From the NCBI RefSeq assembly GCF_015482585.1, contig NZ_CP049742.1:640501-704500 (forward strand): a stretch of 64,000 nucleotides of DNA. Reading direction: 5' to 3'. Shown piece after piece: positions 581 through 56,650 of the stretch (position 1 is the stretch's first letter; the number at the start of each line of letters is the position of its first letter). The notes under the pieces are model-generated. The model searched no databases and was not told the origin of the DNA. It saw only the letters and a list, made by a program, of their open reading frames with translations. This DNA comes from Mangrovibacillus cuniculi (GTDB taxonomy: Bacteria > Bacillota > Bacilli > Bacillales > R1DC41). The translations under genes were made by a program, and so were the position numbers.

Positions 581-1870
581 ATGTCGAAAAAATCCTATGC
601 GACCAACCACCGCAAAGTAGCGCCAGCCCTTTCCATTATTCCAGGGCTAGGACAACTGTATAATAAGCAACTATTAAAAGGTATTATCTTCCTAGTTTTA
701 TTCGCATCATTTTTAATTGTATTTGGAGATACAATTAGTTTAGGAATGTGGGGTATCTTTACTCTTGGAACACAAGTAGGAGATGATTCCGTTTATTACC
801 TAATCTTAGGTATCTTGGCTTTAATTATCCTCGTTATGTTTATAGGATTTTATTTATTCAACCTTCGAGATGCTTACAAAAATGGGTTGAAGCGAGATGA
901 AGGGGAGCAACTTAGCACATTAAGAGAACAGTATCGCAACGTAGTTGACTCTGGTTTCCCATATTTAATTATGTCACCTGGATTGCTATTACTAATCTTT
1001 GTTGTTATATTCCCGATCATATTCGTTATCTTATTAGCCTTTACTAACTATGATTTATACCATACTCCGCCTGCCGCGTTGGTAGATTGGGTAGGTTTCA
1101 AAAACTTTGTTGACATTTTCCAAATCCCAATTTGGAGAGATACGTTCTTCTCCGTTCTAGGTTGGACAATTGTTTGGACTTTTGGAGCGACAACACTTCA
1201 AGTTGCATTAGGAGTATTCCTTGCTATCCTTGTAAATCAAAAAGACTTAAAAGGAAAAGCAATTATTCGTACAGTGTTCATTATTCCTTGGGCAGTACCA
1301 GCTTTCGTTTCCATTTTAGTTTTTGCTGGAATGTTCAATGAGTCTTTCGGAACAATTAATAGAGATATTTTAACTTTCTTTGGATTAAAAGAGATCGTAG
1401 AATACCCATGGATGACGGATCCAATGTTCACACGTATAGCATTGATTCTAATGCAAGGTTGGTTAGGATTCCCATTTATTTTCGCAATGGTAACTGGTGT
1501 ACTTCAGTCTATTCCAGAAGAATTATATGAAGCAGCGACTGTAGATGGTGCATCTGCATTCCAAAAGTTTAAAAATATCACTTTACCTTTAGTGTTATTT
1601 GCAACAGCACCAATCCTGATTACACAGTACACGTTTAACTTTAATAACTTTAACGTAATTTACTTATTTAACGGTGGTGGACCTGCTATCCCGAACCAGA
1701 ATGCTGGAGGAACGGATATATTAATTTCGTGGATTTACAACTTAACGATGACTTCCGCTCAGTATTCTAAAGCAGCAGCAATTACCCTGTTACTATCTTT
1801 AGTCGTTATTACAGTTGCATTATGGCAATTCAAACGCACTAAATCATTCCAAGAAGAGGATATGATGTAA
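581..1870 (+). CDS. mdxF: Maltodextrin ABC transporter permease MdxF (MalF type)
   Basis: Integral membrane permease of the binding-protein-dependent sugar family, 429 residues. The hydrophobic profile gives about eight segments, with an extra N-terminal pair as in Bacillus MdxF. The cytoplasmic EAA loop that docks the ATPase is visible near residue 315 as EAATVDGASAFQKF followed by LPL. I chose ATG 581 because AAAGGGG lies about 8 bases upstream; an in-frame TTG at 524 would add 19 residues without a good ribosome binding site. mdxG follows after one base. The ATPase is not in the cluster, so a shared MsmX-type ATPase elsewhere is likely (inference). Confidence 0.9.
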   Translation: MSKKSYATNHRKVAPALSIIPGLGQLYNKQLLKGIIFLVLFASFLIVFGDTISLGMWGIFTLGTQVGDDSVYYLILGILALIILVMFIGFYLFNLRDAYKNGLKRDEGEQLSTLREQYRNVVDSGFPYLIMSPGLLLLIFVVIFPIIFVILLAFTNYDLYHTPPAALVDWVGFKNFVDIFQIPIWRDTFFSVLGWTIVWTFGATTLQVALGVFLAILVNQKDLKGKAIIRTVFIIPWAVPAFVSILVFAGMFNESFGTINRDILTFFGLKEIVEYPWMTDPMFTRIALILMQGWLGFPFIFAMVTGVLQSIPEELYEAATVDGASAFQKFKNITLPLVLFATAPILITQYTFNFNNFNVIYLFNGGGPAIPNQNAGGTDILISWIYNLTMTSAQYSKAAAITLLLSLVVITVALWQFKRTKSFQEEDMM

Positions 1871-9073: not shown

Positions 9074-9515
9074 TGCCTAAACTCAACTCGGGTGAGGAAA
9101 TGAGTGTTGAGGAGAGAATAGAAGCGTTCTATACTCATCTGGGGCAAGGAAATGAGTGTTGAGAAGAGAATAGAAGAGCTCTATAGTCACCTGGGTAGAG
9201 GAAATGAGTGGCGAGGAGAGAATAAAGGCGTCTAAAACTCACGAAGGAAGAAAAAGTTGCATGCGAGGAGAGAATAAAGGCGTCTAAAACTCACGAAGGA
9301 AGAGAAAGTTGCATGCTAGGAGAGAATAAAGGCGTCTAAAACTCACGAAGGAAGAGAAAGTTGCATGCGAGGAGAGAATAAAGGCGTCTAAAACTCACGA
9401 AGGAAGAGAAAGTTGCATGCTAGAAGAGAATAAGGGCGTCTAAAACTCACGAAGGAAGAGAAAGTTGCATGCGAGGAGAGAATAAGGGCGTCTAAAACTC
9501 ACGAAGGAAGAAAGA
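9064..9515. repeat. 52-bp tandem repeat array, eight units plus a degenerate first unit
   Basis: Units begin at 9111, 9163, 9215, 9267, 9319, 9371, 9423 and 9475, exactly 52 bp apart. The common core is GGAGAGAATAAAGGCGTCTA followed by AAACTCACGAAGGAAGAG and AAGTTGCATGC. The first two or three units have diverged; the last six are nearly identical. 52 is not a multiple of three and no ribosome binding site is linked, so the array is non-coding. It lies between two convergent genes. Confidence 0.93.
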
Positions 9516-14203: not shown

Positions 14204-15160
14204 ATGAAGAAAACTAGGATGAATCTTGTCCTTAGCTTTCTCCTTTTCATACTTTCTGGATGCTCTGTCATTTCATCAGATGAGGAAAAACAGAAAGTAG
14301 GATTGTTGGTACCAAATACGGTTAACGATCAGGTATGGGGAACAAAGGGATATAAAGGACTCTTAAAATTACAGTCACGTTACGGCTTTGAAGTGTTTTA
14401 TAAAGAAGAGATTGTCAAAGAAATAGATATTAAAAACTCTGTTCAAGAACTACATAATAAGGGCGTTACGTTAATCTTCGGACATGGAAATGAGTATGTT
14501 GATATATTTAATGAAATAGCTTCTACATATCCAGAAATTCATTTTATTTCTTTTAACGGAGAAGCAACAGAAGAAAACACCACAACTTTATCCTTTGAAG
14601 GGTATGCGATGGGGTATTTTGGAGGAATGGTCGCTGCCGAGCATTCTTCTTCTCAAGAAATAGCGGTAATTGCTGCCTTTCCTTGGCAACCAGAGGTAGA
14701 GGGATTTATTGATGGAGCTAAATATCATAATCCTAAAACAAAAGTACATGCTTACTTTACAGAAGATTGGGATGACGAAGAAGTTGCGATGACTCATCTA
14801 CAATCTATTACAAAGGAAACGAATACAGATGTTTTTTATCCAGCAGGCGATGGTTTTAACATTCCTGTCATTGAAAAAGTAAAAGAAGACGGTAACTACG
14901 CCATAGGATATGTTTCTGATCAAGCTGATATAAGCGAAACAATGGTGCTAACAAGTACGATTCAACATGTTGATAAACTATATGACCTTGTAGCTAAGCA
15001 ATATATGGAAGATAAACTGCAGCATGGGAGTCTATCTTTTGACATGCAAGACGGAGTGATTTCGTTAGGACAATTTAGCCCGCTGTTAGAAGAAGACTTT
15101 ACAGAGCAATTAAACCAATATGTAGAAAAGTATAAAAAAACAGGTGAATTACCGAAATAA
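14204..15160 (+). CDS. med: Med lipoprotein (BMP family), positive regulator of ComK
   Basis: 318 residues. A short signal peptide ends in the lipobox LSGC, so Cys20 would be lipidated. The rest is a basic-membrane-protein/substrate-binding fold (VGLLVPNTVNDQVWGTKGYKG at the front, IFGHGNEYVDIF, AVIAAFPWQPEVEGFIDGAK). B. subtilis Med has the same size and place and raises competence through ComK. In that species comZ follows in the same operon; here no comZ-like frame lies downstream and a terminator comes at once. Confidence 0.82.
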   Translation: MKKTRMNLVLSFLLFILSGCSVISSDEEKQKVGLLVPNTVNDQVWGTKGYKGLLKLQSRYGFEVFYKEEIVKEIDIKNSVQELHNKGVTLIFGHGNEYVDIFNEIASTYPEIHFISFNGEATEENTTTLSFEGYAMGYFGGMVAAEHSSSQEIAVIAAFPWQPEVEGFIDGAKYHNPKTKVHAYFTEDWDDEEVAMTHLQSITKETNTDVFYPAGDGFNIPVIEKVKEDGNYAIGYVSDQADISETMVLTSTIQHVDKLYDLVAKQYMEDKLQHGSLSFDMQDGVISLGQFSPLLEEDFTEQLNQYVEKYKKTGELPK

Positions 15161-15205
15161 AACTACGGAGCAGGTCAGCGTTATGACTTGCTTCGTAGTT
15201 TTTTT
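15161..15205 (+). terminator. Rho-independent terminator of med
   Basis: AACTACGGAGCAGGTCA pairs along 17 positions with TGACTTGCTTCGTAGTT (two G-T pairs), followed by TTTTTTT. The T-run is directly followed by a 60-nt structured element. Confidence 0.9.
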
Positions 15206-15265
15206 GTTACGTGACCAGTAACAACTCATCGTTAGCCACGTGATGTGGCTTGCCCTTAGATGAGT
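15206..15265 (+). repeat. 60-nt three-stem element, copy 1
   Basis: Begins GTTACGTGACCAGTAAC (stem GTTAC/GTAAC). An outer stem ACTCATC/GATGAGT then encloses a second hairpin AGCCAC-gtgat-GTGGCT. The conserved CTTA precedes the closing arm. The same architecture with compensatory changes recurs at 25991 and 56267. No reading frame is associated. Confidence 0.85.
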
Positions 15266-15385
15266 CTCCTTTGTATTAATGATCATGCTCCAAGGGATAG
15301 AAAAGAGGAAAAAGGACTTTATGGTCCCTTGGCATATACAAAAAAGAAACCAAGATACCAACCAAAACTTCAAACGCACCAACCT

Positions 15386-25206: not shown

Positions 25207-25971
25207 ATGCAGTATCTTCATGACGTATGGGTAAACTGGTTTGAAGGGGAAGAAAACGGTTATAACGTTTGTCATTTTCACGAATGGAAAAGAGAAGATG
25301 TCATTGAACTCTTAGATCAAGTACCTCTACTATACATATCAAGAGACCTATTCGAGTATATAGAAAATGACCTTTCAGAGCTTCCGGCATTATTACTAGA
25401 AGAAATCTATCAAAAATCATACTTACGGAAAAATCACGAGAGAACAACGGTTGATTACGCATGTGTGCTAACAGATGGGAATCGAATTATAGCGATTGAT
25501 ACGATTGGATATCAGATACCTATTCGTAAAAGCAGAATTATCCCAAGACATGAACAACTGGTGTATGAAATGATTCAACAAGAAGAACCGAGACGATTTG
25601 AAATTCCAAGAAACGCGTATAAAAAAGAGCATCATATTTTATCTCCCTCACCAATAGAAATGCGTGGATTAACACGAAAAGAACGTCAATTAAAACAGTT
25701 GCTTTATATGGCATTAGATCATCTTTACACAAGCAAAAATGTTTCAGAACTTCGCTACTGGTTTACAGAGTGGGAGCCAGACCAGTACCGCAACATTCAA
25801 CATCTATCTTTTGAAGAGCTGTGGACACCATTCTATTCAGCAATTAAATCAGGATGGAGCAAAGAACATGTGTTACTTTGTGAAAGAATGATTAAAGGGC
25901 AACCTTTCTTCGAGAGACTTTGGGAAGTTGAAACACAGTCCGTAAATGAAAAACCACCGTTATGGCATTAA
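25207..25971 (+). CDS. yjbA: YjbA family protein (UPF0736, DUF3603)
   Basis: 254 residues, similar in length to B. subtilis YjbA. The front [20 protein letters not shown] and the Trp/Glu-rich body are characteristic of UPF0736. No membrane segment, signal or catalytic motif is visible and the function is unknown. GAGAGGGA precedes ATG 25207. It lies between the app operon and trpS as in B. subtilis. Its stop codon falls inside its own terminator. Confidence 0.88.
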
Positions 25972-25990
25972 TGCCTAACGGTGGTTTTTT
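25950..25990 (+). terminator. Rho-independent terminator of yjbA, overlapping its stop
   Basis: AAAACCACCGTTA pairs with TAACGGTGGTTTT; the loop TGGCATTAATGCC is itself palindromic. The T-run abuts copy 2 of the 60-nt element. Confidence 0.9.
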
Positions 25991-26050
25991 GTTACGTGAC
26001 TAGTAACAACTCAGGATTGGCAACGTGAAGTTGCCGGTACTTACCTGAGT
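25991..26050 (+). repeat. 60-nt three-stem element, copy 2
   Basis: GTTAC/GTAAC first stem, then outer stem ACTCAGG/CCTGAGT enclosing GGCAAC-gtgaa-GTTGCC. Compared with copy 1, both arms of the outer and inner stems have changed together. It starts immediately after the T-run of the yjbA terminator. Confidence 0.86.
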
Positions 26051-26109
26051 ATCCTTAAAATAAATCCTCCAGGCGGCAAGTTTGTGCACAAATTCATGTA
26101 TTGTAAATA

Positions 26110-27381
<1,272 letters not shown>

Positions 27382-41587: not shown

Positions 41588-41703
41588 GTGAAGTTGATCA
41601 CAAGCAAACATATACCCCTTTGTTTGACCGTGAAAAATTTCTCCCATCCCCTTTGTTCGTAAAGAGAAAAGACACCGTGGTTCCCCTGCGGTGTCTTTTC
41701 ATA
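41588..41703 (+). ncRNA. roxS: Small regulatory RNA RoxS (RsaE family)
   Basis: The stretch carries the RsaE/RoxS hallmarks: a 5' region ending ATACCCCTTTGTTTGA, then GTGAAAAATTTCTCCCAT, then the C-rich seed CATCCCCTTTGTTCG, then a terminator hairpin AAAAGACACCG/CGGTGTCTTTT. The C-rich single-stranded seeds bind Shine-Dalgarno regions of central-metabolism mRNAs. Location between pepF and spxH/yjbH matches S. aureus RsaE. Ends are estimated: the start from the promoter, the end from the terminator, giving about 115 nt. Confidence 0.88.
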
Positions 41704-43154: not shown

Positions 43155-43224
43155 ACAATGTGACTTTATTTTGTATAGATAATGAAATTATGATGTACTA
43201 GTGGTTGTAATTGTGAGGCATAGA

Positions 43225-43370
43225 GGAGAAGTCGCTGTTAATTGGAGAGAAACCAGCGGCAAGTCGGAGAAGCCGCAGGAATTCGGAGAAAAAAGCAACG
43301 GCAAGTAGGAGAAGCCGCAGGAATCCGAAAAGAAACCAGCGGCAACTCCAAAAAGCCGCCAAAAATACAG
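43225..43370. repeat. 41-42-bp tandem repeat array, three units plus a partial
   Basis: Units start at 43225, 43266 and 43308 with GGAGAAGCCGCAGGAA and share a second half ending AAACCAGCGGCAAGT; a decayed unit starts near 43350. It lies between the divergently read yjbI promoter region and the end of cwlQ. Frames through it on the minus strand lack start signals and are not genes. Confidence 0.85.
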
Positions 43371-53166: not shown

Positions 53167-53230
53167 TTCTCGAGAGAAGTAACAATTAATTTGACTAGAT
53201 GTCATGTGTTTCAAAGGTAAAGGAAGCGTG

Positions 53231-53490
53231 AGCGGTATAGCAGAAGAGAAAAAAGCAGGTGCAAGTATACCGGAGGAAGCTTCAGCGGTATAGCAGAAGA
53301 GAAAAAAGCAGGTGCAGGTATACCAGAGGAAGCTTCAGCGGTATAGCAGAAGAGAAAAAAGCAGGTGCAGGTATACCAGAGGAAGCTTCAGCGGTATAGC
53401 AGAAGAGAAAAAAGCAGGGCAGGTATACCAGAAGAACCTCCACCGATATTGCAGTAGATACATAAACCAAGATCAGGTATAGGAAACGGA
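53231..53490. repeat. 53-bp tandem repeat array, four units plus a decayed fifth
   Basis: Units start at 53231, 53284, 53337 and 53390 with AGCGGTATAGCAGAAGAG, then AAAAAGCAGGTGCAGGTATA and CCAGAGGAAGCTTC. Units 2 and 3 are identical; unit 4 has lost a base. A decayed fifth unit runs to about 53490. The 53-bp period excludes a coding repeat. It fills the 480-base gap before the SpoVA block. Confidence 0.9.
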
Positions 53491-56237: not shown

Positions 56238-56266
56238 AAGAGGGGCTAGAAATTAGCCTCTTTTTT
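56238..56266 (+). terminator. Rho-independent terminator of yjcZ
   Basis: GAGG-GG-CTA pairs with TTAG-CCTC around GAAA, followed by TTTTTT. The T-run abuts copy 3 of the 60-nt element. Confidence 0.82.
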
Positions 56267-56324
56267 GTTGCGTGACGCAACAACTCCGTGTTGACCACGT
56301 GAAGTGGTCCGCCCTTAACGGAGT
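56267..56324 (+). repeat. 58-nt three-stem element, copy 3
   Basis: GTTGC/GCAAC replaces GTTAC/GTAAC of the other copies. The outer stem is ACTCCGT/ACGGAGT and the inner hairpin GACCAC-gtgaa-GTGGTC. The first loop is two bases shorter. Its 3' arm is duplicated in the following tandem array. Confidence 0.87.
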
Positions 56325-56650
56325 ATCCGTACTAAAAAACGATAACTAAGCAACAAACCAAAAACATGCCCATGCAGATAAATCACAACTCCAAACAAGA
56401 AACAAAGGAAGAAAGTAGGCCCTTAACGGAGTATCCGCCCCCAAAAAGCTAACTAAGCAACAAGCCCAAAACAAGCCCATGCAGATAAATCACAACGCTA
56501 AGCAAAAAAAAGGAAGAAAGTAGGCCCTTAACGGAGTATCCGCCCCCAAAAAGCTAACTAAGCAACAAACCCAAAACAAGCCCATGCAGATAAATCACAA
56601 CGCTAAGCAAAAAACAAAGGAAGAAAGTAAAGCCCTTAACGGAGTAACTA
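56312..56650. repeat. 105-108-bp tandem repeat array, three units plus a partial
   Basis: Units start at 56312, 56420 and 56525 with CCCTTAACGGAGTATCCG; a fourth begins at 56633 and stops after the first 15 bases. Each unit contains AACTAAGCAACAA, CCCATGCAGATAAATCACAA and GGAAGAAAGTA. The repeating 5' part is the 3' arm of copy 3 of the structured element. It occupies most of the 540-base gap before spoVIF. Confidence 0.9.

Follow-up and report, generated by a model that had tools for sequence, protein, structure and literature searches.

Bacillaceae-1 (Rfam RF01690) was rated a likely non-cis RNA in its discovery paper (Weinberg 2010; PMC2864571), is filed by Rfam under sRNA, and, as cited in PMC10440787, has been reported as two classes (Gene 2022 841:146756). 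Its reverse complement has been proposed to bind CsrA, as both loops match the CsrA motif, a GGA in a hairpin loop (PMC4333381). The REP and REPIN elements, which are associated with RAYT transposases, are GTAG- and CGTC-tagged palindromes (PMC3733652). The miniature elements of the IS200/IS605 type (palindrome-associated elements) contain hairpins inside both ends, use a fixed left target, and are orientation-specific with no obvious target duplication. Group IIC introns insert 3' of intrinsic terminator hairpins. The element described here is a divergent form of RF01690 on the minus strand. In this lineage the roughly 66-nt element is probably a non-autonomous mobile hairpin DNA, a Bacillaceae-1 variant that has spread to about 147 sites directly 3' of terminators in a fixed orientation.

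Three copies of 64–66 nt each, all on the plus strand, are located in the window, which is the whole 64,000-nt stretch analysed. The scores given below refer to R1, a covariance model trained on 28 copies from the host genome, and to RF01690, with a gathering score (GA) of 35:

14204 to 15160: gene served by the terminator of copy 1, PnrA-like/Bmp (Pfam PF02608).
15161 to 15205, plus strand: intrinsic terminator (long hairpin and T-tract), target of copy 1, from sequence and fold.
15206 to 15271, plus strand: copy 1 (R1 90.5 bits; RF01690 33.4 bits on the minus strand), with hairpin 1 GTTAC/GTAAC, a 7-bp outer stem ACTCATC/GATGAGT enclosing hairpin 2 AGCCAC/GTGGCT, and, as single strands, GTGA loops, CTTA and the tail CTCCTT.
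25207 to 25971: gene served by the terminator of copy 2, DUF3603 (Pfam PF12227).
25950 to 25990, plus strand: intrinsic terminator (hairpin and T6), target of copy 2, from sequence and fold.
25991 to 26056, plus strand: copy 2 (R1 84.7 bits; no RF01690 match up to E=1), with outer stem ACTCAGG/CCTGAGT, hairpin 2 GGCAAC/GTTGCC and tail ATCCTT.
56239 to 56266, plus strand: intrinsic terminator (hairpin and T6) after a small ORF, target of copy 3, from sequence and fold.
56267 to 56330, plus strand: copy 3 (R1 81.7 bits; RF01690 38.3 bits on the minus strand, above GA), with hairpin 1 GTTGC/GCAAC, outer stem ACTCCGT/ACGGAGT, hairpin 2 GACCAC/GTGGTC and tail ATCCGT.
56311 to 56646, plus strand: tandem array of period 105 and 3.1 copies, from TRF and sequence.

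The preliminary description had located these three copies and drawn their fold as we find it. Its start points hold, but the unit runs 6 nt beyond the ends it gave, to a right edge of (A/C)TCC(T/G)T. A 42-nt core pattern (7-bp outer stem, loops, and CTTA) matches the window at these three sites only and found nothing in 100 dinucleotide shuffles of the window, and the runner-up R1 match in the window scores 10.1 bits. The first base of every window copy directly follows the T-tract of an intrinsic terminator. The 105-bp array starts inside copy 3 and its unit begins with the 3' end of that copy (GCCCTTAACGGAGTATCC); the array looks to be derived from the element. Three other tandem arrays in the window, at 9077-9511, 43224-43359, and 53221-53458 (periods of 52, 41, and 53 bp), are unrelated. 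The window also contains a T-box leader upstream of a tRNA synthetase gene (27155-27375, minus strand) and an RsaE/RoxS sRNA (41588-41700, plus strand).

The three copies are part of a far larger set, which the preliminary description had missed together with the junction to the terminator T-tract. R1 matches the host genome (3.15 Mb) about 147 times at E<=0.01, among 150 candidates scored, and a pattern search of the same genome gave 115 matches versus none for the reversed-pattern control. When all column pairs of 88 distinct copies are ranked by G-test for covariation, the top five (6-37, 7-36, 11-27, 12-26, and 5-38) each correspond to a predicted base pair, and none of these pairs is constrained by the search pattern. 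The base pairing of the element is real and its structure is constrained. The compensatory changes first noticed in three copies are thus abundant throughout the genome, and the constraint on structure proposed from them is borne out. The one-sided stem changes are balanced, with 23 G-T and 27 A-C. Selection for an RNA on one strand is expected to leave an excess of the wobbles of that strand, so this lack of asymmetry gives no sign of it.

On the minus strand, 24 host-genome copies pass the RF01690 gathering score, the best with 49.2 bits, and all 67 positions of the RF01690 model align to the copy at L014, including two hairpins, one of them within the 7-bp outer stem, and the CUAAG and AAC(G) strands. 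The preliminary description knew of no named family with this consensus; the comparison with Rfam supplies one, an outcome that the description itself had listed as refuting. An Rfam scan of the window at the gathering threshold missed the copies, and permissive filters recovered two of the three (copies 1 and 3, not copy 2). Copies 1 and 2 remain below the RF01690 cut-off, which indicates a divergent branch. The host element and RF01690 share the two-hairpin plan, the 7-bp outer stem, the TAAG (CTTA) and AAC single strands, and the AAGGA (TCCTT) edge. In contrast to RF01690, the host element has RUCAC loops in both hairpins instead of RUC[CG]U, reaches its high copy number next to terminators, and is here interpreted, on the opposite strand, as mobile DNA. 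The loop GTGA, corresponding to RUCAC on the Rfam strand, is present in 88 and 85 of 96 host-genome copies in the two hairpins, respectively, and the host genome does not have the RF01690-typical RUCCU-type loops in both hairpins. RF01690 is present in 30 of 61 Bacillales genomes, with as many as 68 copies in a single genome, and also in B. subtilis. Of 66 copies taken from at least 12 genomes besides the host, nearly all have A[GC]GA loops (RUC[CG]U on the Rfam strand). When 22 other genomes were searched for the GTGA-loop variant, matches stayed at chance level, as in the reversed control. The supposition that the two loops agree in any given genome was abandoned, since other genomes mix AGGA and ACGA.

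The loops also bear on the proposal that the element, read from the plus strand, binds CsrA or acts as a sponge for it. AGGA predominates among the loops of the other genomes sampled, with some ACGA, in line with this proposal, and the host genome has two CsrA proteins, the second of which is divergent:

L308, about 1639 to 1815, plus strand: second CsrA, near two flagellin genes, with the C-terminal -RKE- replaced by -RGE-.

However, none of the 96 host copies has GGA in a hairpin loop, and a CsrA sponge was rejected for the host genome on this ground. Elements are also present in G051, G052, and G033, where CsrA was not detected. Similar copies of the second CsrA occur in G002, G022, G025, and G030; the loops of G002 and G030 are AGGA and G025 has no RF01690 match, so this CsrA type does not track the loop change. 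We regard a CsrA role as extremely improbable.

At least four T residues lie directly 5' of the element in 88 of 96 copies, an arrangement found by chance at 1.3% of positions. The T-run is on the same side in all 88, giving the element a fixed left motif and an orientation specificity like those of the IS200/IS605 miniature elements. A hairpin of -10 kcal/mol or lower abuts the T-run in 80 of 89 copies, compared with 7% of control T-runs. By a simple ORF call, 90 of 96 copies are intergenic, with a median distance of 55 nt to the nearest ORF upstream, and 75 of these 90 point in the same direction as that ORF; the ORF counts, like the truncation counts given below, come from loci chosen for holding a copy. 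Copies are situated right after T-box attenuators (L019 and L029), a purine-riboswitch terminator (L018), and the RNase P RNA terminator (L021), which indicates that the target is the terminator and not a type of gene. In other Bacillales genomes, only one of 66 copies follows a T-run; terminator targeting is not a trait of RF01690 elsewhere, and we read it as lineage-specific. In about 90 sampled stretches of the host genome, from which skew and gene context were drawn, 87% of copies have the leading-strand orientation, and the orientation switch point calculated from the copies is at 2.717 Mb, 3.6 kb from dnaA. Gene orientation is biased too, close to 87%, so that replication and transcription are not separable by orientation. 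Lagging-oriented copies also lie behind T-runs, and together with the gene bias this means that the orientation seems to be set by the terminator. Both the terminator targeting and the covariation are well shown.

These positions weigh on the reading of the element as a functional Bacillaceae-1-type RNA of either strand, whether an sRNA, a site of RNA processing or a site bound by protein; rRNA leaders and transcripts that read through a terminator are examples of where it could act. The constrained pairing and the RNA classification by Rfam and in the discovery paper (PMC2864571) agree with such an RNA, as do the copies in 16S leaders of G042 and G039, the G042 copy ending exactly at the 16S 5' end. 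But the T-tract is 5' of the element, so a terminated transcript of the upstream gene would exclude it; the roughly 147 copies sit behind unrelated terminators; the G-U versus A-C asymmetry that would mark a functional strand is lacking; and orthologous sites are without the element, which was found next to none of 80 orthologues of the DUF3603 gene preceding copy 2. A general RNA function is accordingly improbable in our assessment. A function is possible for copies in 16S rRNA leaders outside the host genome (L111 and G042), and individual copies, such as the one before the 16S 5' end in G042, may have been put to use. A further rRNA-associated copy was observed in the relative G004 (L107, 350-500): the helix IV hairpin of a degraded second 5S rRNA-like copy, which adjoins an intact 5S gene, holds a Bacillaceae-1 element. 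5S rRNA expansion segments were considered for this 5S-like copy and set aside, as the orders listed for them include no Bacillales (PMC7812874).

The site behind terminator hairpins is shared with group IIC introns, and, on the minus strand, an A-run resembling a retroelement tail comes directly after the element. Both features would suit spread by an RNA copy that is reverse-transcribed at the T-tract, in the manner of a group IIC intron or by SINE-like target-primed insertion. Unlike group IIC introns, however, the host element is only about 66 nt long and has no intron core or maturase. The group II maturase domain GIIM (PF08388) has no match in the host genome (G000), for which a group II maturase was rejected as mobiliser, and it is missing from most high-copy genomes. 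Truncated copies are practically absent, with 77 complete left ends versus no left-only copy, and retrotransposition with truncation was rejected accordingly; the one-sided changes, again, show no wobble asymmetry. Spread through RNA is very unlikely.

Movement of the element as DNA is well supported indirectly. A structured repeat of 124 nt that is distinct from the element (GTGTCTAGCTCCAGGTGCGC...GCGCGCCTGGAGCTTTTC) occurs in the host genome, often as tandem copies, at L009, L010, L036, L055, L082, and other loci. Copies of the element are found either behind the T-tract of this repeat or within its hairpin. The tandem repeat ends in a hairpin plus CTTTT, and at L055 and L082 the junctions between GCTTTT and ..TGTCTAGC within the 124-nt repeats are in some cases empty and in one case filled by a complete element at the same locus. 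A subfamily of nine matches lies inside the repeat's own hairpin (L036, two at L069, L087-L089, and L091-L093). At L053, L054, L088, L089, and L091-L093, the 124-nt repeat occurs as nested copies with another repeat (GGGATTGGAGCGGAAGGGGGCGACTCC...) on their flanks, and several repeat families are stacked inside one another. In the host genome, one element lies inside hairpin 2 of another at L086 and L094. In the arrays of the relative G014, a single complete copy is preceded by 5' halves that break off at the hairpin-2 loop and followed by 3' halves, with stem types partly mirrored; this order is what successive nested insertion into the hairpin-2 loop would give, and the nested arrays could in part be slippage products. 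Searches of plasmid and phage collections gave no match. Taken together, the terminator targeting, the empty sites, and the nested copies in relatives are more readily explained by a mobile hairpin DNA than by a conserved RNA gene.

A REP-like repeat mobilised by the host's own RAYT (Y1) transposase would be one such DNA. The host genome has a single, apparently intact Y1 gene with the HUH motif HVH, located beside a tandem repeat:

L123, 1234 to 1821, minus strand: RAYT-like Y1 transposase of 195 aa, sole Y1 of the host genome.
L123, 1920 to 2488: 85-bp tandem repeat adjoining the RAYT-like gene.

Like REP and REPIN, the element is short, high-copy, extragenic, non-coding, palindromic hairpin DNA, and it has a fixed orientation with no obvious target duplication. 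In contrast to them, it has no GTAG or CGTC tag (its left flank is TTTT and its right edge ATCCTT), its two dissimilar hairpins are in direct orientation, its left end lies at terminator T-tracts, and it does not flank the RAYT gene. The 85-bp repeat that does so is a different one and is probably the transposase's own, and the 3.3-kb locus L123 contains no element (no R1 match above 6.5 bits). Y1 genes are present in 53 of 61 Bacillales genomes with no clear link to element copy number, and the high-copy genome G007 has its Y1 gene only in a broken form. RAYT was rejected as the mobiliser, since its gene is not linked to any element copy, and we consider a REP-like origin unlikely.

The preferred reading, a mobile hairpin DNA directed to terminators, resembles single-stranded DNA transposition of the IS200/IS605 type in several respects: hairpins inside both ends, a fixed left target, orientation specificity, no evident target duplication, and whole units only. 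The host element differs in having no linked TnpA. By analogy, an HUH (Y1) route like that of IS200/IS605 may be envisaged, for which the host genome offers one candidate Y1 gene, and in which the element would insert directly 3' of the terminator hairpin and T-tract in a fixed orientation, with a TTTT-type motif retained as the left target and not duplicated. One enzyme might recognise both hairpins by their identical loops, and its substrate would be single-stranded DNA, either of the lagging strand or of the non-template strand at a paused terminator. Structure would be maintained since only folded copies could move, so that compensatory changes would arise without need of a cellular function. 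A bolder version is a new kind of terminator-targeting miniature transposon, in which one loop-reading enzyme changed its specificity in the host lineage, so that the change of both loops from RUC[CG]U to RUCAC went together with a shift of target to the hairpin and T-tract of terminators, possibly to the non-template strand left single-stranded by a paused polymerase; this we put forward tentatively, as a doubtful though conceivable extension.

The RF01690 family itself was already known, and what is new is the element's position at terminators and its origin. In the host lineage at least, the evidence suggests that RF01690 is a mobile hairpin DNA homing to transcription terminators, as opposed to the sRNA and CsrA-sponge readings. 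If so, the annotation of many genomic matches of RF01690 would change, and the mobilising agent becomes a testable question. Strong covariation alone is no proof of RNA function: transposition that depends on structure imprints it as well.
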